In this document: positions 20,812-62,645 of the stretch, piece after piece | Layout: each line of letters starts with the position of its first letter | Position numbering within the stretch: the stretch's first letter is position 1 | Source: Pseudoalteromonas gelatinilytica | Lineage (GTDB): Bacteria > Pseudomonadota > Gammaproteobacteria > Enterobacterales > Alteromonadaceae | Assembly: GCF_001641615.1 (NCBI RefSeq) | Contig: NZ_LRRU01000007.1 | Location: 62,001-126,000, forward strand | Direction: 5' to 3' | Length of the DNA: 64,000 nt | Program-made: the position numbers and the translations under genes | The notes under the pieces: model-generated | The model's input: the letters and a program-made list of their open reading frames with translations, nothing else | Told to the model about the DNA's origin: nothing | The model's database searches: none

Positions 20812-22440
20812 TTACCAGAAGCGGTAGTAAATAAAGGCAGTAATACCAATAATACCCGCAGTATGAATGTAGTCCCACTTATCTAAGCCGGCAGCCACTT
20901 CTTTCATGGTTGCTTTATCTAGACTTGAGAAAGTAAGACCTTTCAATTGTTCTTCGTCTGCTTGCTTGGTGAAAATACTCACCACAATCATAATGGCGAC
21001 CACGATGACAAATAGCAGAATACAGTAATACAACCAGTTCATAGTGGTGATCCACGCAAATGATGAACCTGTTAAATCATCTTTAAATGGCAGCAAGACT
21101 AAGCGGATCATACCCAGTACAAAACCAGATACTAAGCCCACAAAACCCGCTGTTGGAGTGATGCGTTTACTACATAAACCGAGTAAGAATACCGCAGCAA
21201 TACCCGGTGCAATAAGAGACTGCACACTTTGCAGATATTCATAAAGCACATCGGCAATTAAGCTCATGACGGGTATCCATAAAAGGCCTAATACAACAAT
21301 CACGATAGTGGCAATTCGACCTACCTTAAGAAGGTGTTTCTCAGATGATTCAGGTTTGAATTTCTTATAAAAATCAATAGTGAATAAGGTTGCTGATGAG
21401 TTAAATAATGATGCTAAAGAACTCATTAGTGCTGCAACTAAACCACCGATTACAATCCCCTTAACGCCTGCTGGCAATAGCTCAGCAACTAAAGTTGGGA
21501 AGGCTTGGTCAGCACTTTCATAGCTAATAATACCTTTAACATTCAATGCGTATGCAATCATGCCTGGTACTAAGAAGATAAATACAGGAAGTAATTTTAA
21601 GTAACCAGCAAACATGGTACCGCGACGCGCTTCTTTAATGCCTTTTGCGGATAAAACACGTTGTACGATGTATTGGTCTGTACACCAATACCAAAAACCA
21701 ATAATGAATGAGCCAAAAATAATGCCTGGCCATGGGAATTCAGCATCTGAAGCACTACGAATAAGGTGCATATTGGCCGCATTAATACGCTCAACTTCTT
21801 CCCAGCCACCTACTTTATCTAAACCAACAACTAATATGACTAAGGAGCCAATAATGAGCACCGGAGTTTGCAACACGGAGGTCCACATAATGGCTTTCAT
21901 ACCACCAAGTACCGTATAAATACCGGTGATCACCACAAGGCCAATCGCTGAAATCCAGAAGAAGTCGATACCCCAAATGCTCTCAATACCCAAGATTGTT
22001 TTAAATGCGATACCGCCGGCATAAACCGTTACCGCAACCTTGGTTAATACATAACTAATCAATGAGATAACAGACAAGAAGGTACGTGATTTAGAGTTAA
22101 AGCGGCGCTCTAGGAACTCTGGCATGGTGTAGACTTTACTACTCCAATAGAAAGGCACGAAAATCCAACCGAGTAGTAGAATGATCCACGATTGCATTTC
22201 CCAGTGAGCCAGTGCCATACCCGATTGTGCACCTGAACCTGAAAGGCCCACCAAATGTTCCGAGCCAATGTTTGATGCGAAAATAGAGGCACCAATCACT
22301 AACCAACTTGCATTACGACCCGCTAAAAAGTAATCAGCGGTGTCTTCTTCTTTTTGTCGCATAGACATCACGACAACGCCTAGTAACAGGACAAAAAATC
22401 CTGCTAGCACTGCCCAGTCTAAGGTACTTAGTTCGACCAT
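20812..22440 (-). CDS. Sodium/solute symporter (SSS family), probable arabinose uptake
   Basis: Start chosen at ATG 22440 with TAGGTGG 8 bases upstream; a GTG four codons earlier overlaps that ribosome site. 542 residues with about 14 hydrophobic segments. Typical SGLT-branch features are DYFLAGRNASWLVIGASIFASNIGSEHLVGLSGSGA near the N-terminus, and WYWCTDQYIVQRVLSAK, which corresponds to the vSGLT sugar-binding helix region. It should bring monosaccharide in with Na+. It is divergent from the GntR-type regulator, with AT-rich operator-like sites before both genes. Confidence 0.88.
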   Translation of the reverse strand: MVELSTLDWAVLAGFFVLLLGVVVMSMRQKEEDTADYFLAGRNASWLVIGASIFASNIGSEHLVGLSGSGAQSGMALAHWEMQSWIILLLGWIFVPFYWSSKVYTMPEFLERRFNSKSRTFLSVISLISYVLTKVAVTVYAGGIAFKTILGIESIWGIDFFWISAIGLVVITGIYTVLGGMKAIMWTSVLQTPVLIIGSLVILVVGLDKVGGWEEVERINAANMHLIRSASDAEFPWPGIIFGSFIIGFWYWCTDQYIVQRVLSAKGIKEARRGTMFAGYLKLLPVFIFLVPGMIAYALNVKGIISYESADQAFPTLVAELLPAGVKGIVIGGLVAALMSSLASLFNSSATLFTIDFYKKFKPESSEKHLLKVGRIATIVIVVLGLLWIPVMSLIADVLYEYLQSVQSLIAPGIAAVFLLGLCSKRITPTAGFVGLVSGFVLGMIRLVLLPFKDDLTGSSFAWITTMNWLYYCILLFVIVVAIMIVVSIFTKQADEEQLKGLTFSSLDKATMKEVAAGLDKWDYIHTAGIIGITAFIYYRFW

Positions 22441-31051: not shown

Positions 31052-31549
31052 CTAGAAATGAAAAGCGAGATACGCCATTACTGCGAGTTGTGAACTGACT
31101 AAACAAGCAAGCAACATTAAGCGCATCTGCGTGGTTAAATTAACTTGAATAAGGGTTGGTTTATTTGGTGCAGAAGGGCGATTAATTAAATACGCTAACA
31201 CGCTTAACTCAATCACTGCCACAAGATACATCACCCAAATTGGCGCGGCACTTTGCAGTAAAAAAACATACCCGATTGCCATCCCAAAACCCGCTAAGAA
31301 TTTGGCTCGGGTAGGTACAACCTTATGCTCTTGCCAGAACCTCAGAGGCTGGCCGTATCTAGGATGGTTGAGCAACCACGCAGACAGCTTGGGCGATGAG
31401 CGGGTGAAACAGGCCAATGCCAAGATAAAAAAGATAGTCGTCGGCATCACAGGCAGTGCAATGCCTATGATACCTAAACCCACCATCAATAACCCGAGTA
31501 ATTGATAGCAGCCATTTTTATAGGCGGTAAACGCCGCTCTCACATTCAT
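31052..31549 (-). CDS. DUF454 (YbaN-like) inner-membrane protein
   Basis: Starts at ATG 31549, overlapping the haem oxygenase stop (TGATG), so translation is coupled. 165 residues: GLLMVGLGIIGIALPVMPTTIFFILALACFTRSSP is the DUF454 signature, followed by GQPLRFWQEHKVVP and four or five membrane segments in all. The function is unknown; DUF454 proteins often sit beside haem or iron genes. The C-terminal extension past about residue 125 is longer than in E. coli YbaN. Confidence 0.86.
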   Translation of the reverse strand: MNVRAAFTAYKNGCYQLLGLLMVGLGIIGIALPVMPTTIFFILALACFTRSSPKLSAWLLNHPRYGQPLRFWQEHKVVPTRAKFLAGFGMAIGYVFLLQSAAPIWVMYLVAVIELSVLAYLINRPSAPNKPTLIQVNLTTQMRLMLLACLVSSQLAVMAYLAFHF

Positions 31550-32127
31550 CAATAAAATTGAGCCTGATAAAACTTAAATCGTTGTTGTGCTTGCTCAGCA
31601 CCCTCTATCAAGGTGGCCTGTTGCTCATCACTGAGTTCAAGGTTATCAATAAGATGGCTTAGTTGACAGCCCTTATTACATTCACTGGCTTTAGCTAGAT
31701 AACGAGCACCACGTTGGTTATTTAACTTTAGCTCAGCTTCAACTTGTTTGCCTAATGTTGTCGCTGAAAATTGCGACCCTTCAATAACATATAGCCAGCC
31801 AAGTGCATAGGCAAAGTCGGTGTGTTGAAAACAGCGTGGTTGCAGTGTGCGATTTGGCAGAGGGTGTTTTAAATCGTTTAAGTCCTGCTCGATGAAGGGG
31901 AGTCGTGTACGATCAAATAAATTATCAACATATTTATGTAAATCAACGTGTTGATAAAGGTTCTCTACCTCGACTTGATAACTGTACTGTAAGGTTAGAA
32001 ATTTTTTATAGTTATCTAAATCAGTAGTGGGTGATAGCGCTATTAAATGATGATCAATCTCTTTTGAGATGTTTACTATCGCTTGTTTTAGCTTTTCAGC
32101 TCGAGAAAGTAGCTCGAGTATTGGCAT
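31549..32127 (-). CDS. Biliverdin-producing haem oxygenase
   Basis: Start chosen at ATG 32127 (GAGGA 8 bases upstream); an earlier in-frame start adds six residues without a ribosome site. 192 residues, all helical. EIDHHL near residue 25 carries the likely proximal His region, and GWLYVIEGSQFSATTLGKQVE (about 110-130) is the distal-helix signature of bacterial HemO/BphO-type enzymes. It opens haem to biliverdin, CO and Fe2+, releasing iron. A Fur box lies upstream at 32274. No phytochrome is present nearby, so iron acquisition is the likelier role. Confidence 0.85.
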   Translation of the reverse strand: MPILELLSRAEKLKQAIVNISKEIDHHLIALSPTTDLDNYKKFLTLQYSYQVEVENLYQHVDLHKYVDNLFDRTRLPFIEQDLNDLKHPLPNRTLQPRCFQHTDFAYALGWLYVIEGSQFSATTLGKQVEAELKLNNQRGARYLAKASECNKGCQLSHLIDNLELSDEQQATLIEGAEQAQQRFKFYQAQFY

Positions 32128-32273
32128 GAATAGGGTCCTCAGCAACGTCTATAAAGTAAATGCACGGGGTAGTTGATGTTGTCATAGGGTGAATACCCAT
32201 ACTTTCTAAGTGATAGTTTGATAAAGCTGCTGTGCAGTTTTTATCAACAAACTCGGCTCAGAATGGGAGTGTA

Positions 32274-32288
32274 TAATAATGATTTTCA
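32274..32288. promoter_or_regulatory. Fur box before haem oxygenase
   Basis: TAATAATGATTTTCA matches the 7-1-7 Fur consensus at 12 of 14 positions, about 150 bases before the haem oxygenase ATG. The rest of the 337-base gap 32128-32464 shows only the porin terminator. Confidence 0.7.
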
Positions 32289-37676: not shown

Positions 37677-37725
37677 TGAAAATAATTCTCAATATCATTG
37701 ATTCGTTTTAATATTGAGGTATACT
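37677..37725 (+). promoter_or_regulatory. Fur box and promoter before a small membrane protein
   Basis: TGAAAATAATTCTCA (37677-37691) fits the 7-1-7 Fur consensus at 12 or more of 14 positions and is identical over 15 bases to boxes at 58747 and 59062. TTGATT (37698-37703), 16-base spacer and TATACT (37720-37725) form a promoter just downstream. Confidence 0.65.
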
Positions 37726-37997: not shown

Positions 37998-38082
37998 TTT
38001 CTTACACTTTTTAACTTCAGGCTTTTAAAAAAGCATCGCATACTAATTCTTAAATTAAGCAACATGCTAATCAAGGATTGTG

Positions 38083-51589: not shown

Positions 51590-51693
51590 TCTTGTTTTTG
51601 GCAAACTAACTGAAAGGTTAGGACGCAAAGTTTCCGGTCTAAGGTTTTAAACTATGATAGCGGGGCCGCTGATAAGCACATAATCTAGTGCTT
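51590..51693 (+). ncRNA. c-di-GMP-I riboswitch (GEMM-I)
   Basis: The conserved core is readable: GGCAAAC (51600), a CTAACT-GAAA-GGTTAG tetraloop hairpin, GGACGCAAAG (51620), TTTCCGG and TAGCGGGGCCGC (51658). This is the order and wording of Vc2-type GEMM-I riboswitches. AAGCAC ... GTGCTT at 51674-51693 may be the expression platform. It lies about 90 bases before a chitin-binding gene, a known GEMM-I target class (gbpA in Vibrio). Confidence 0.88.
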
Positions 51694-55221: not shown

Positions 55222-55695
55222 TTAACCAAGGTAGGCTTTTAACATCCAAACAAGTTTCTCTTGTTCTTTGATGTAGTCGCCCATAAGTGATGCTGTACCT
55301 TCGTCATCTGCATCACCTGCTTGTGCGAGGATTTCACGCTGCATCTGAATAAGCGTGCTGTAACCTGCTAATAGGTTTTCTACTGCCGCTGTGCCTTCAG
55401 TGATATTTTTAGCTTCACTAATTTTGCTTGCTTCAATGTACTCAGAGAATGCGTGCACAGGTGTACCACCTAACGTTAAAATACGCTCTGCAATCTCATC
55501 TACTTTCTCAAGCAGTAGGTTATAAATTTCTTCAAATTTAAGGTGTAATTCAAAAAAGTTACGACCTTTGATGTTCCAATGAAAGCCGCGTGCGTTCATG
55601 TATTGAATTTGGTAGCAGCTTAATAAAGAGTTAAGTGATTTTACGATATCTTCACTTTTTGCGCTGTTTAAACCAATTGCATTTACCTGTGACAT
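55222..55695 (-). CDS. dps: Dps-family ferritin-like DNA-protecting protein
   Basis: 157 residues, a four-helix bundle. The ferroxidase residues are in FHWNIKGRNFFELHLKFEEIYNLLLEKVDEIAERI (His, His, Asp, Glu). LGGTPVHAFSEYIEASKI is the usual loop. It stores iron and removes peroxide as a dodecamer. The short N-terminus lacks a lysine-rich DNA tail. AAGGAGCAAATCT precedes the ATG. Confidence 0.92.
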   Translation of the reverse strand: MSQVNAIGLNSAKSEDIVKSLNSLLSCYQIQYMNARGFHWNIKGRNFFELHLKFEEIYNLLLEKVDEIAERILTLGGTPVHAFSEYIEASKISEAKNITEGTAAVENLLAGYSTLIQMQREILAQAGDADDEGTASLMGDYIKEQEKLVWMLKAYLG

Positions 55696-57517: not shown

Positions 57518-58462
57518 ATGGCCATCCAGTGGTTCCCGGGTCACATGAACAAAGCCCGAAACGAAATTAAAGAAATCATGCCACAGATGGATGTGATCAT
57601 TGAGGTACTTGATGCCCGTATTCCTTACAGTAGTGAAAACCCAATGGTTACTGCGCTGCGTGGCGATAAGCCGGTGATCAAAATCATGAATAAGGCGGAC
57701 TTGGCAGATCCTAAGTTAACGCAAGCTTGGAAAGACTACTTTGAACAGCAAAGTGGCGTAAAAGCGATTGATTTTGGTAATGATAAAGCAGGTGAAGTGC
57801 ACCGTATTAATGAGCTTTGTAAAAAATTAGTGCCGCATAAAGTAGGCGCTGATAAGCAAATTAAAGCCATGATCATGGGTATTCCAAATGTTGGTAAATC
57901 AACGCTTATTAATACTTTAGCCGGCCGTATTGTGGCAAAAACAGGTAATGAACCTGCAGTAACAAAAGCACAGCAACGTATTAAGCTTGACGATGGCATT
58001 ATGCTTTACGACACGCCGGGTATGTTATGGCCTAAAGTAGAGAACGAAAACTCTGGTTATCGTTTAGGGGCAACCGGCGCAATTCGTGATACCGCTATCG
58101 ACTACGAAGAGGTGGCAAGTTACACCGCTGAATATTTACTGCATGCATATCCAGAACTTTTAAAAAGTCGCTATAAAATTGATGAGCTACCAGAGTCTGA
58201 CTGGGAGTTTGTTGAAATGGCAGGTAAAAAGCGTGGTTGTATCCGCGGTGGTAATCAAATTGATACTTACAAAATGTCTGAAATTCTTATCAACGAATTA
58301 CGCGATGGCATTATTGGTCGTATTACCATGGAAACACCGGTTATGCGTGAAGAAGAAGAGCAAATGGTTGCTGAGCTTCGCGCTGCTGCAGAGGCGAAAA
58401 AAGCCGCTAAAGAAGAAGAGAAAAAACAACGCCGTGCACGTGCACGTAAGAACCGTCGATAA
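57518..58462 (+). CDS. ylqF: Ribosome-biogenesis GTPase YlqF/RbgA
   Basis: 314 residues of a circularly permuted GTPase: WFPGHMNKA at the start, G4 NKAD (about 57), G1 GIPNVGKST (about 121), G3 DTPG (about 166), then a helical C-terminal domain and a Lys/Arg-rich tail. The family assists assembly of the large ribosomal subunit. TAGGAG lies 7 bases before the ATG. It is convergent with the small RNA gene at 58488. Confidence 0.93.
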   Translation: MAIQWFPGHMNKARNEIKEIMPQMDVIIEVLDARIPYSSENPMVTALRGDKPVIKIMNKADLADPKLTQAWKDYFEQQSGVKAIDFGNDKAGEVHRINELCKKLVPHKVGADKQIKAMIMGIPNVGKSTLINTLAGRIVAKTGNEPAVTKAQQRIKLDDGIMLYDTPGMLWPKVENENSGYRLGATGAIRDTAIDYEEVASYTAEYLLHAYPELLKSRYKIDELPESDWEFVEMAGKKRGCIRGGNQIDTYKMSEILINELRDGIIGRITMETPVMREEEEQMVAELRAAAEAKKAAKEEEKKQRRARARKNRR

Positions 58463-58487
58463 AGTTAATGCATTAATTTTTAGACAT

Positions 58488-58703
58488 AAAAAAAGCCCTG
58501 CAAGGGCTTTTTTAGTTTCATATCTACCGTCACCGATATGAGCAATGTAGCAAGTAAAATAAGTAGGGTCGCTTATATGTTGCCAATATCAAGGGGCGTT
58601 GCGATTAGTAACATATAAGCTAAAGCTTTAACGTGGCGACACGCGTTTCTGGGGAGAAACAAATTCAATCTGAACAAGTCATCATACTTTGCTTGGCTTG
58701 TTG
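58488..58703 (-). ncRNA. RyhB-like iron-responsive small RNA, copy 1
   Basis: About 216 nt on the minus strand, with no coding frame. From 5' to 3': a GUUUC/GAAAC hairpin with C-rich loop, a small CGUG/CACG hairpin, a long hairpin with perfect 11-base arms (58571-58581, 58610-58620) showing a loop with CCCCUU, the single-stranded core ACATTGCTCA (58539-58548), an AUAUC/GAUAU hairpin, and a terminator AAAAGCCCTTGCAGGGCTTTTTTT ending at about 58488. The 10-base core is identical to E. coli RyhB. A near copy lies directly upstream. Promoter and Fur boxes are at 58710-58761. The transcript start is estimated from the -10 box. Confidence 0.82.
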
Positions 58704-58709
58704 AGATTA

Positions 58710-58761
58710 ATTATCAATTAGGTTTGCGGTACTGTCAATATGTTTTTGAAAATAATTCTCA
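58710..58761 (-). promoter_or_regulatory. Fur-controlled promoter of small RNA copy 1
   Basis: On the minus strand: TTGACA (58733-58738), 17-base spacer, GATAAT (58710-58715). A Fur box TGATAATTAATCTCA overlaps the -10 (12 of 14 positions), and a second box (TGAAAATAATTCTCA on the plus strand, 58747-58761) lies just upstream of the -35. Confidence 0.82.
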
Positions 58762-58799
58762 TTTAGTTTGGTTGCAGGTTTGGTGCGAATTTTAGACAT

Positions 58800-59018
58800 A
58801 AAAAAAGCCCTGTAAGGGCTTTTTGAGTTTCATATCTACCGTCACCGATATGAGCAATGTAGCAAGTAAAATAGTAGGGCGATCACCTGTTGCCAATATC
58901 AAGGGGCGTTGCGATTAGCAACAGGCGATCTTAGCTTTATCGTGGGCCACACGTGTTTCAGGGTCGAGAAACAAATCAGTTTATTCCGAACAAGTCATAA
59001 CACTTTATTGTCTTGTTG
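58800..59018 (-). ncRNA. RyhB-like iron-responsive small RNA, copy 2
   Basis: About 219 nt on the minus strand, the upstream partner of copy 1, with the same order of elements. The core ACATTGCTCA is at 58851-58860. The long hairpin arms (58881-58892, 58919-58930) differ from copy 1 at five pairs, four of them double compensatory changes and one A-U to G-U. The apical region including CCCCUU is identical. The G-U pair forms only in the minus-strand RNA (it would be an A-C mismatch on the other strand), which supports the direction. The terminator AAAAGCCCTTACAGGGCTTTTTTT ends at about 58800. Confidence 0.82.
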
Positions 59019-59024
59019 ATAGTG

Positions 59025-59076
59025 ATTATCAATTAGATCTGCATATCTGTCAATACTCAATTGAAAATAATTCTCA
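59025..59076 (-). promoter_or_regulatory. Fur-controlled promoter of small RNA copy 2
   Basis: On the minus strand: TTGACA (59048-59053), 17-base spacer, GATAAT (59025-59030). TGATAATCACTATCA overlapping the -10 fits the Fur consensus at 13 of 14 positions. A second Fur box (plus-strand TGAAAATAATTCTCA, 59062-59076) lies upstream of the -35, the same layout as copy 1. Confidence 0.85.
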
Positions 59077-59195
59077 TTTCTTTATGTTTGTTTTTTAAAC
59101 TTCCCTAATACAATGCATTAGCACTAAAGTTAGGCTGTAAATTACGTGCAATAAAAACTATGCTGGGGCTATAACAATTAAAATAATCACATGCG

Positions 59196-62100
59196 ATGTT
59201 CTCAATTTGGTCAATAAGCCTTCTTGCAATTGTATATCTGGCAATTTTATTTGCGGTTGCAGGCTGGGCTGATAAAAGAAAAGTATTGCCTTTTAAAGGC
59301 TTAACCTATGGTTTATCACTTGGGGTGTATTGCACCTCTTGGGCGTTTTTTGGTACCACAGCACAAGCTGCATACAACGGCTGGTGGTTGGCTCCGACCT
59401 ATGCTGGCACTATTTTGCTATTCATTTTTGGCTGGCAAGTCTATTGCCGCATAGCGCATATTTGTCGGCAGCAAAAAATAACCTCAATGGCAGATTTTAT
59501 TGCGACCCGATATGGTCAATCGTCGAGTTTGTCTGGGCTCATTTCATTGATTTCAGTGATTGCCATTGTGCCCTATATCTCTTTACAGCTAAGTGCAACT
59601 GCACAAAGTATCAACTTACTTACCGACCGCGCTGCCACACAAAGCCATGAAGTATGGGCCGATAGTACTTTTTACATCACGATTGTATTGGCACTGTTTG
59701 CTATTTTATTCGGCGCGAGGCGGTTAAAGCCCAGCGAACATAATCCAGGTTTGATTGCCAGTATTGCCTTTGAATCTGTGGTTAAATTATTGGCGTTTTT
59801 AGCGGTGGGTTTGTATGTGTGCTTTGCTCTATTCGACAGCCCAGTGGCTCTGTTTGAAAAAGCGCATGACCTAAATATTGATCAGCAAGTGGCGGCCACA
59901 CAAAGTCCAACCTATGTGTATGTTGCTCATACTTTGCTTGGTATTTTGGCGACCTTATGTTTGCCAAGACAATTCCACATGAGCTTTATCGAAAAAAATA
60001 ACGATAAAGAGCTGGCCTCGGCGCGTTGGCTATTTCCGATTTACCTCTTACTTATTAACCTGTTTATTCTACCGATTGCATACGCCGGATTAATTTACTT
60101 TCAAGGTCAAGAAGTCGGCTACGACACCTTTGTATTGGCTTTACCCATGGCGGCTGATGATGCTTTTGTGGCGTTATTAGCCTTTTTAGGTGGCTTTTCA
60201 GCGGCAACCAGTATGGTGATTGTGTCATCAATTGTGCTTTCAGTGATGATCACTAATGACTTTATTAACCAATTTATTTTACGCCGCTCGCAACTTACAT
60301 CGAGTAGTCGCGGGCTTGATAAAAATAACCTATTACATGCGCGTAAAATCGTTATCGTATTGATTCTATTGCTTAGTTACTTCACTCACCGAGTGCTGGG
60401 CGAAAGTACAACCCTTGCCAATGTGGGGTTGATGTCGTTTACCTTAGTCGCGCAATTTTCGCCTGCCATGATCATAGGTTTATGGTGGCGACAAGCATCG
60501 TGTCGCGGTGCGCAATTGGGGATTTTAAGCGGCTTTATTATTTGGGGATACACACTTTTACTACCGAATATCGCCGGAGGTTTAGGAAGCGATAGCTTAT
60601 GGCTTGTGAATGGACCGTGGGGAATAAGCTGGTTAGCGCCAACCGACTTATTCTCATTAGGCATGGAAAGCATTAGCCAAGCTTTATTGCTATCGCTAGG
60701 TGCGAACTGTTTAGTGTATTTCTTAGTACCGTTATTTAGTCGAGCAACCTTAGCTGAACGCTTGCAGAGCAATAAGTTTGTGTCGCAGCTTAGTGATTCT
60801 CGAGTGAGTAATCATCTACAGCCTTTGAGTTACCATGACCTAGGTGCGCTAATGCAGCGATTTGCCGAAAAAGAAGCGGCGCAGTCGTTGGTAAATCATT
60901 ACTTTCCGGATGATAAAAGTAAGTGGAAACGTCCTGCCAATGTTGAGTTAGAACTATTAGTTGAGCGCGAGATGTCTGCGGTGATCGGCGGCGCATCGGC
61001 ACGGCTTATTTTAGATGTGGCTAAAAATGAGCAGCGCCAGCCTCTAGAGCAGGTTGCCGAGTTTGTTGATGAAGCAAGCCAAGTACTTAAATTTAATCGT
61101 GATTTACTGCAATCAACAATCGAAAACATTCAACAAGGGATCAGTGTAGTTGATAGTGAGCTGCGCTTGGTAGCTTGGAACCAAGGCTACAAAAACATGT
61201 TCGCCTACCCAGATGATGCGCTTTACATAGGCCGCCCGGTTGCCGACATTATTCGTTTTAATGCCGAGCGTGGCTTATTTAGCGGCGAGAGCATGACCAG
61301 CGAAGTTGAAAAACGCTTAGCCTATTTACGCCAAGGCAGCGCTTATAAATACCAGCGCTCGCACAATGATGGCCGGGTGTTTGAAATGCAAGGTAACCCA
61401 CTGCCCGGTGGTGGCTTTGTAACAACCTATACCGACATCACCGAGTTCGTAAAACAACAAAAAGCGTTAACCGAAGCAAATGTTAGCCTTGAAGAAAAAG
61501 TCGCAGCCCGCACCTTGGCATTGACTCAAGCAAACCAAGAGTTGTCGATGGCAAAGCAAGTGGCGGAACAAGCAACGGTCAGTAAAACGCGCTTTTTTGC
61601 CGCTGCCAGCCATGATTTACTGCAACCTTTCAATGCTGCGAGTTTGTTTTGTTCTTTAATGAATGAAAAAGCCCAAGACACCGAACTTAAAGAGCTGGCG
61701 ATGAATATTAAGAATTCATTAGGCAGCGCCGAAGAGTTGTTATCGAGTATTTTAGAGTTAACCAAGCTCGATTCAGGCTCGTTTAAAGTACAAATGAGCG
61801 AGTTTGCTGCCAGCTCGTTGGTTGAGCCACTGCGTAATGACTACGAAGCCCTTGCCCGTGAAAAAGGCTTAAAGTTTATTATTGAAACCTGTGATGTGCG
61901 CTTGCATACCGACAAAGCGCTGTTACGCCGAGTACTACGTAACCTTTTGAGTAATGCGATTCGTTATACCGAGCAAGGTGAAGTACGCTTGAAAATGCAG
62001 TACGACGATGACCATGTATCCTTTATTGTTGAAGACACTGGGATTGGTATTGCATCGAGCGATCAACAAACTATTTTCCAAGAGTTTAAACAGCTTGGTG

Positions 62101-62645
62101 CAAAACCAAGCGCCGAGGGGTTAGGCTTAGGGTTGGCAATCACTAAACGTATATGTGACTTACTTAAAATTCCGCTAGTGATGGGGTCTGAACTTGGTAA
62201 AGGCACGCAATTTACCCTAACTCTACCTTGTAGAGTGAGTACTGCGCCAGCGCAAGCGAAAGGCGCTGAGGCATCACAAGAAACCGAGCTGGGGCAATTG
62301 CGTATTTGGTTGCTTGATAACGACCGCAACGTGTTAGAGGCATTAAAGCAGCTACTCGAAAATTGGGGCTGCGAAATCTCAACGGCCACGAACTTAGTGG
62401 AACTTGAGCAGTTAAAGGCAAGCCAAGCCCTGCCGCAATTGTTGATTATTGATTATCAGCTTGATGATGGGGTAACGGGACTTGAAGTGATTGAGCAAGC
62501 GGCACTAACACGCTTACCAGCCATCGTTAATACTGCGAATCATGATGAAGGCATACGCGAGTTAGTGCTCGATGCGGGCTATCCATTACTTTATAAGCCT
62601 CTGAAAGCGCCCGCCTTAAAACGGATGATTAAGCGACTGACTTAA
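59196..62645 (+). CDS. Hybrid sensor kinase with N-terminal SSS transporter domain (CrbS-like)
   Basis: 1149 residues. Residues about 1-520 form a sodium/solute-symporter-like domain with about 13 helices (FKGLTYGLSLGVYCTSWAFFGTTAQAAYNGWW, MADFIATRYGQS). Next come a PAS domain (about 635-750, LQSTIENIQQGISVVDSELRLVAWNQGY), a coiled linker, a HisKA domain with the phospho-His in AAASHDLLQPFNAASLF (about 805), an HATPase domain (NAIRYT, DTGIGI, GLGLGLAI) and a receiver (about 1030-1149, Asp in LLIIDYQ). This order matches CrbS, the acetate-switch sensor of Vibrio, rather than CbrA, which lacks the receiver. The partner regulator is not in the window. The stop codon overlaps the next gene on the other strand. 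Confidence 0.85.
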   Translation: MFSIWSISLLAIVYLAILFAVAGWADKRKVLPFKGLTYGLSLGVYCTSWAFFGTTAQAAYNGWWLAPTYAGTILLFIFGWQVYCRIAHICRQQKITSMADFIATRYGQSSSLSGLISLISVIAIVPYISLQLSATAQSINLLTDRAATQSHEVWADSTFYITIVLALFAILFGARRLKPSEHNPGLIASIAFESVVKLLAFLAVGLYVCFALFDSPVALFEKAHDLNIDQQVAATQSPTYVYVAHTLLGILATLCLPRQFHMSFIEKNNDKELASARWLFPIYLLLINLFILPIAYAGLIYFQGQEVGYDTFVLALPMAADDAFVALLAFLGGFSAATSMVIVSSIVLSVMITNDFINQFILRRSQLTSSSRGLDKNNLLHARKIVIVLILLLSYFTHRVLGESTTLANVGLMSFTLVAQFSPAMIIGLWWRQASCRGAQLGILSGFIIWGYTLLLPNIAGGLGSDSLWLVNGPWGISWLAPTDLFSLGMESISQALLLSLGANCLVYFLVPLFSRATLAERLQSNKFVSQLSDSRVSNHLQPLSYHDLGALMQRFAEKEAAQSLVNHYFPDDKSKWKRPANVELELLVEREMSAVIGGASARLILDVAKNEQRQPLEQVAEFVDEASQVLKFNRDLLQSTIENIQQGISVVDSELRLVAWNQGYKNMFAYPDDALYIGRPVADIIRFNAERGLFSGESMTSEVEKRLAYLRQGSAYKYQRSHNDGRVFEMQGNPLPGGGFVTTYTDITEFVKQQKALTEANVSLEEKVAARTLALTQANQELSMAKQVAEQATVSKTRFFAAASHDLLQPFNAASLFCSLMNEKAQDTELKELAMNIKNSLGSAEELLSSILELTKLDSGSFKVQMSEFAASSLVEPLRNDYEALAREKGLKFIIETCDVRLHTDKALLRRVLRNLLSNAIRYTEQGEVRLKMQYDDDHVSFIVEDTGIGIASSDQQTIFQEFKQLGAKPSAEGLGLGLAITKRICDLLKIPLVMGSELGKGTQFTLTLPCRVSTAPAQAKGAEASQETELGQLRIWLLDNDRNVLEALKQLLENWGCEISTATNLVELEQLKASQALPQLLIIDYQLDDGVTGLEVIEQAALTRLPAIVNTANHDEGIRELVLDAGYPLLYKPLKAPALKRMIKRLT

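Follow-up and report, generated by a model that had tools for sequence, protein, structure and literature searches.

The window, by which we mean the whole 64-kb stretch of DNA analysed and from which all bare coordinates are taken, carries on its minus strand two head-to-tail non-coding units of 215–218 nt, placed between ylqF and a gene for a hybrid sensor kinase (Table 1). The genome to which the window belongs (G000) is called the own genome below. An earlier note on this DNA had described two units of about 220 nt, each with a TTGACA-N17-GATAAT promoter, a Fur box on the −10 element, an identical second box upstream, the 10-base pairing core of RyhB and an intrinsic terminator. Each of these elements was recovered, the Fur boxes as four putative sites scoring at least 12/14, and the predicted transcripts of 218 and 215 nt are 86% identical. 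The terminator of unit 2 is followed by T-runs on both strands, so that it could end ylqF too. The matches of the sensor kinase, which the earlier note calls CrbS-like, to SSF and to the NahK/ErcS subfamily are both under their cut-offs.

Table 1. Features of the tandem array and its neighbours in the window (R1 is the covariance model described in the text)
Feature	Position	Strand	Details
ylqF, ribosome biogenesis GTPase	57518..58462	+	TIGR03596, 349.7 bits, cut-off 208.2; neighbour converging on the array, outside it
Terminator hairpin, unit 2	58489..58513	-	T-runs on both strands
Predicted sRNA, unit 2, about 215 nt	58489..58703	-	R1 190 bits
21-nt core, unit 2	58536..58556	-	with ACATTGCTCA at 58548-58539
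Covarying hairpin, unit 2	58571..58620	-	loop AACGCCCCTT at 58600-58591
Putative Fur box over −10, unit 2	58702..58716	-	12/14
Predicted promoter, unit 2, TTGACA-N17-GATAAT	58710..58738	-	motif search
Putative upstream Fur box, unit 2	58747..58761	-	12/14; same as upstream box of unit 1
Predicted sRNA, unit 1, about 218 nt	58801..59018	-	R1 219 bits; 5' end inferred from promoter
Intrinsic terminator, unit 1	58802..58824	-	
21-nt core TACTTGCTACATTGCTCATAT, unit 1	58848..58868	-	includes RyhB 10-mer ACATTGCTCA at 58860-58851
Covarying hairpin, unit 1	58881..58930	-	loop AACGCCCCTT at 58910-58901
Hairpin GTTTC/GAAAC, unit 1	58955..58972	-	loop TCGACCCT (C-rich loop 1)
Putative Fur box over −10, unit 1	59017..59031	-	13/14
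Predicted promoter, unit 1, TTGACA-N17-GATAAT	59025..59053	-	motif search
Putative upstream Fur box, unit 1	59062..59076	-	TGAGAATTATTTTCA on minus strand, 12/14
Hybrid sensor kinase, divergent neighbour	59196..62645	+	PAS, HisKA, HATPase, receiver

Six promoter-like matches were observed in the region 57800-59700, against a mean of 5.7 in shuffled sequences, and the two unit promoters, each 11/12, are the best two of the six. Fur boxes were scanned with a palindromic consensus of 15 bp, of which 14 positions are scored; six sites in the 64-kb window reach at least 12/14, and four of them fall at the array, two per unit, the two upstream boxes being identical (TGAAAATAATTCTCA).

The remaining two sites lie at 32274 and 37677. 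The former (12/14) stands just upstream of a minus-strand gene resembling heme oxygenase (Pfam PF01126, 29.2 bits, cut-off 23; gene and box together 31549-32288), which probably serves iron-regulated heme use; the latter (37677-37691) is identical to the upstream boxes of the units and lies in the gap before an ORF at 38080. Only one Rfam family exceeds its cut-off anywhere in the window, a c-di-GMP-I riboswitch at 51590-51673 on the plus strand (70.3 bits).

A blast search of the own genome returned both units and a third copy at G000:C11:27400-27481, which has its own promoter and a different 5' half; a fourth match (L004) was a bare terminator and was discarded. From the genus, 105 copies were parsed; for a 106th the search returned no terminator. 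The 96 copies that passed a length and promoter filter gave 34 representatives, and the covariance model R1 (216 positions) was built from 30 copies, omitting four representatives whose length or 5' half was aberrant (L003, one of L043 and two of L049). A promoter with at most one substitution precedes 102 of the 105 parsed copies; every one of these 102 carries a putative Fur box of at least 11/14 on the −10 element, a score to which the −10 hexamer itself contributes, and 93 have the upstream box in addition. The longest closed ORF per copy has a median of 22 and a maximum of 56 amino acids (105 copies), which argues against a protein product.

The units belong to a family found throughout the genus: 107 of 108 Pseudoalteromonas genomes match both by blast and by R1, with 290 R1 copies in total and 1–5 per carrying genome (one copy in 11 genomes, two in 38, three in 32, four in 23 and five in 3). 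The single genome without an R1 match, G096, is an assembly of 180 contigs, its best E value under laxer filters is 0.72, and the absence is possibly an assembly gap. The earlier note had staked its reading beforehand on conservation of the core and the Fur boxes in relatives, and such conservation is what the 107 genomes and the 93 of 102 copies with both putative boxes display. Its description of a pair held for the tandem, PrrF-like arrangement and has to be widened as to number, from two units to a genus-wide family with a third copy in the own genome.

Tandem arrangement was counted in the 59 genomes for which the array locus had been fetched. Exact cores stand in tandem in 43 of them (two in 27, three in 12 and four in 4), and 16 have one; G060, with copies about 1.3 kb apart, is counted as one, and G062 and G070, whose copies sit at the end of a contig or on different contigs, are omitted. 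The fetched stretches, whose flanks are short and unequal, include ylqF, beside the array, in 48 and the kinase gene in 17 of the 59 genomes. Copies within a genome can be nearly identical (100% and 96% in G080, 100% in G103), which indicates that some of the array duplications are recent.

Dispersed copies also occur: of the 16 Pseudoalteromonas genomes in the family sample, 10 have a copy on a different contig from the array. Four single copies (L003, L081, L082 and L083) are flanked by a Sel1-repeat gene and a DUF6279 gene, an assignment checked with Pfam for L003. They are without the CGCCCC loop and keep the core together with a CGACCC close before it, so that there may be two builds of the RNA. 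In the plasmid collection, eight records of 0.80–0.92 Mb match, all from Pseudoalteromonas, and the matches cover the 3' quarter of the unit, that is, core and terminator; we take one copy to sit on a presumed second replicon.

The specificity of R1 was assessed in the genus and in a sample of 295 genomes of the family. In this sample, all 16 genus genomes match and none of the 279 genomes of 51 other genera, a count obtained with strict filters and few candidates scored per genome, so that R1 may miss weak relatives. A search of 84,980 named species genomes gave 115 stretches with an exact copy of the 21-mer TACTTGCTACATTGCTCATAT, and the 80 of them among the matches listed are all from Pseudoalteromonas. 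A phage origin was dropped, as the 21-mer occurs in no viral contig. A loose pattern of core plus terminator matches 29 of the 279 other-genus genomes, against 8 of 295 for a reversed control; ACATTGCTCATAT is in none of these 29, and the 20 loose-pattern loci checked (9 of the 29 genomes lie outside this check) have no upstream Fur box of at least 12, the best being 11. We read the loose matches as chance.

Both transcripts fold better than dinucleotide shuffles (unit 1, z = −5.0, 0/200 as good; unit 2, z = −3.7, 1/200). On alignment A2, RNAalifold gave 35 pairs, 14 of them with compensatory changes. The named structure pairs in 88.6% of the cells, against 80.9% in shuffles and 39–51% when slid; cells changed on both sides number 117 against 43.2 (0/500 as high), and pairs with a double change 16 against 12.6 (4/500). 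Helix H2 is excluded from this covariation support, its brackets being off by one column, in R1 too. The signal is located in the long hairpin, where 12 of 13 pairs show double changes and the CGCCCC of the loop is invariant within A2; beyond A2 it varies somewhat more, with CGCCCC within 110 nt of the core in 113 of 123 array copies from the 59 genomes. The compensatory changes thus support the predicted hairpin around the C-rich loop. The core hairpin CATATC/GATATG is the same throughout A2, and covariation therefore speaks neither for nor against it. The core is not uniformly single-stranded, as the minimum-energy folds of both units pair part of it with the 5' half. In a divergent copy, L310 (G014:C29:43585-43727), TACTTGCTACAT and CGGTGACGGT are kept and the TGCTCA of the core is lost.

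Possible targets were assessed by duplex energies between three regions of the RNA and four gene starts, giving 12 tests against shuffled regions. The shuffles were mononucleotide, and up to 20 distinct sites were used per gene (sdhC 20, sodB 20, acnB 18, fumA 16). Pairing between the core and sdhC gave the strongest signal, −23.4 against −14.0 in shuffles (0/300) for the distinct sites; over all 30 loci the energies range from −19.4 to −27.5 kcal/mol, with a mean of −22.9 against −14.1 (sd 2.5) for shuffled cores, 3/400 of which were as low. The complement of the 5' half of the core, GGGCAAGTAAC, is kept in 30/30 sdhC loci. The site complementing its second half is kept in 26 and lost in L190, L192, L193 and L215, four of the 30 species thus being without the 5' half of the sdhC site. 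In the own genome the site spans −29 to −2 of the inferred GTG start. It should be noted that in 11 of the 30 loci the 70 nt upstream contain no in-frame stop, which makes an earlier start possible, and that the conserved block runs on into the coding sequence, so that its conservation by itself shows little. Own sdhC ranks second among 73 own-genome gene starts for pairing with the core; the top place is held by an unrelated gene at 20812-22440 on the minus strand (542-aa ORF, −24.1 kcal/mol, with a large bulge), which also has the strongest pairing among the 41 window ORFs tested.

Second is fumA, with −16.8 for the core against −12.2 in shuffles (7/300), and the C-rich loop gave a weak signal with acnB (−13.9 against −10.4, 10/300), for which the core gave none (181/300). 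Nine of the 12 tests, sodB included, were without signal. sodB is a classical RyhB target; a start-codon search for the core complement together with duplex energies gave no overall signal for it (mean −12.3 against −12.0 over 29 starts, 155/400; 132/300 for the 20 distinct sites), and it was rejected as a target of the family, with strong pairing in the single species L232 (−22.4) and L233 (−20.2). In an MnSOD control, the core pairing averages −12.5 (15 of 19 loci parsed). A Dps/ferritin-like gene at 55222-55695 on the minus strand, with a modelled core pairing of −17.4 kcal/mol at −47 to −30 upstream, is a candidate iron-related target.

A search of 11 genomes for a 15-mer complement of the core with at most two mismatches was dominated, among the matches listed, by a repeat of the octanucleotide AGCAAGTT. 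Arrays of 2 to 20 units, outside the ORFs listed, lie at G000:C9:191523-191681, at five further places in the own genome (L268–L273) and in G003 (L274–L276). Each unit is complementary to the ACTTGCT that directly precedes the RyhB 10-mer. The arrays could be a sponge or a coincidence; a role as a sponge was examined and set aside.

With RyhB (RF00057), the units share a putative Fur-box promoter, the 10-nt pairing core ACATTGCTCA, an intrinsic terminator and, as a prediction here, repression of sdh. The Rfam scan for RyhB and PrrF suggested in the earlier note was run and gave 26 matches up to E 10, none of them to either family; the gathering score of RyhB is 55 bits, and PrrF is represented in Rfam. 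Among 247 genomes of the order, 89 match Rfam RyhB at E ≤ 0.001, and 62 of these exceed the cut-off. The own family contributes no genome to the 89, 19 of its genomes are shown without a match, and the E. coli control was positive. Vibrio-like (f21) and Shewanella-like (f2) loci share the long core ACATTGCTCACATTGCTTCC, to which the core of the f16 genomes is near-identical, whereas the units here have TTTACTTGCTACATTGCTCATATCGGTGACGGT instead, an overlap of 10–13 nt only. The label RyhB-like is thus retained for the predicted Fur-box promoters and the core, but it extends neither to a match with the Rfam family nor to the long core.

The core may have been reached by descent or by convergence. 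Under descent, the units would be true Pseudoalteromonas orthologues of Vibrio and Shewanella RyhB, altered beyond recognition except in the core, to which we give somewhat less than an even chance. The identical 10-mer (12/13 positions when the next three are counted) speaks for it, as does the promoter layout of Vibrio-like loci, which by eye is alike, with a Fur box and then TTGAC with a second Fur box; the V. cholerae RyhB is 215 nt long according to PMC2964681. The Rfam result points the other way, although the same article reports that Rfam missed the RyhB of S. oneidensis as well, so that failure to match Rfam does not establish non-homology. Against descent also stand the absence of ACATTGCTCACATTGCTTCC from the R1 RNA and the lack of any intermediate among the 279 genomes of the other 51 genera of the family, under strict filters with few candidates scored. 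If instead an unrelated Fur-controlled RNA gained a pairing core favoured by its targets or by the sRNA machinery, for which we put the chances at about even, the difference of the surrounding sequence and of the predicted target profile (sdhC yes, sodB not overall, in contrast to RyhB, which pairs with sodB) would be expected; the resemblance in promoter layout would not, and by our own arithmetic the chance of a given 10-mer in about 220 nt is near 2 in 10,000. We lean slightly to convergence. Very improbable, in our view, is that the locus is an array of Fur-binding sites or terminators, titrating Fur or insulating ylqF from the kinase gene, with the RNA incidental: two putative Fur boxes per unit and up to four units in a row would suit it, but it leaves unexplained the covariation of the RNA, the constant core and the dispersed single copy, whose 5' half differs.

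Tandem ryhB as such is not new. The earlier note knew of no described tandem RyhB pair in this group, but one in Shewanella amazonensis is already reported in PMC2964681, and the presence of a Fur box and of tandem copies is thus common to Shewanella RyhB and the units here. Shewanella-like copies differ in that they have the long RyhB core and, judged by eye, a single Fur-box-like stretch near it. The title of the same article states that the TCA cycle of S. oneidensis is independent of RyhB. Rfam-matching RyhB genes stand in tandem in f2 (three in G546 and G452; two in G498, G387 and G484) and in f16 (G529 and G491), and the loci L109 and L116 (f2/g53, Shewanella-like) and L117 and L120 (f16/g67) are three- and two-copy arrays. 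Repeated tandem duplication of iron sRNAs is therefore wider than Pseudoalteromonas.

A similar arrangement is that of PrrF1 and PrrF2, which lie in tandem in P. aeruginosa (PMC4211561): as proposed here, they are Fur-controlled iron-sparing RNAs, each with its own promoter and terminator, and they number two in Pseudomonas against up to four in tandem here. C-rich hairpin loops and tandem arrays set the R1 RNA apart from the RyhB of Enterobacteria and Vibrio. Such loops are known from IsrR of staphylococci, an RNA repressed by iron whose C-rich regions, including two located in hairpin loops, are able to act on Shine-Dalgarno regions (PMC9410917); the sequence comparison with IsrR consists of the Rfam scan. 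Unlike in IsrR, the C-rich loops here accompany a RyhB-type core, and a function for them is a guess.

Taken together, we propose that the units are probably members of a family of Fur-repressed, RyhB-like, trans-acting sRNAs that spare iron and lie in dynamic tandem arrays, sdhC being the foremost of their predicted targets. Each unit would be a separate transcription unit. When iron is plentiful, Fur-Fe(II) would occupy the two boxes of each promoter, one upstream of the −35 element and one on the −10 element, and block transcription; when iron is short, the copies would be transcribed together, each stopping at its own terminator. The long hairpin, backed by covariation, would present the C-rich loop, and TTTACTTGCTACATTGCT, which follows it downstream, is predicted to stay mostly single-stranded; TTACTTGC and TTGCTCAT are the candidate pairing stretches. 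In this model the core would pair with the ribosome-binding sites of mRNAs, by prediction above all that of sdhC (succinate dehydrogenase) and next that of fumA (Fe-S fumarase), and the predicted drop in their translation would spare iron. Shine-Dalgarno regions, for example that of acnB (weak), may in addition pair with the C-rich loop as a second site. Tandem duplication would add copies and, most likely, raise the dose of the RNA. A more specific version, which we find possible but rather doubtful, is an iron-sparing RNA special to the genus that reached the RyhB core independently and combined it with IsrR-type seeds in C-rich loops. Expansion and contraction of the chromosomal array would tune the output of this RNA, and a differently built single copy, in some strains on a second replicon, would back it.

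Iron limits growth over large parts of the ocean. Marine bacteria of the genus Pseudoalteromonas are common and can be cultured. The literature that our search returned, as far as its text was available, describes no iron-responsive RNA for this genus. The array would offer a natural copy-number series, from one to four in tandem, for gauging the dosage of an sRNA, and the constant loop within a freely changing stem marks pairing sites that may be tested.
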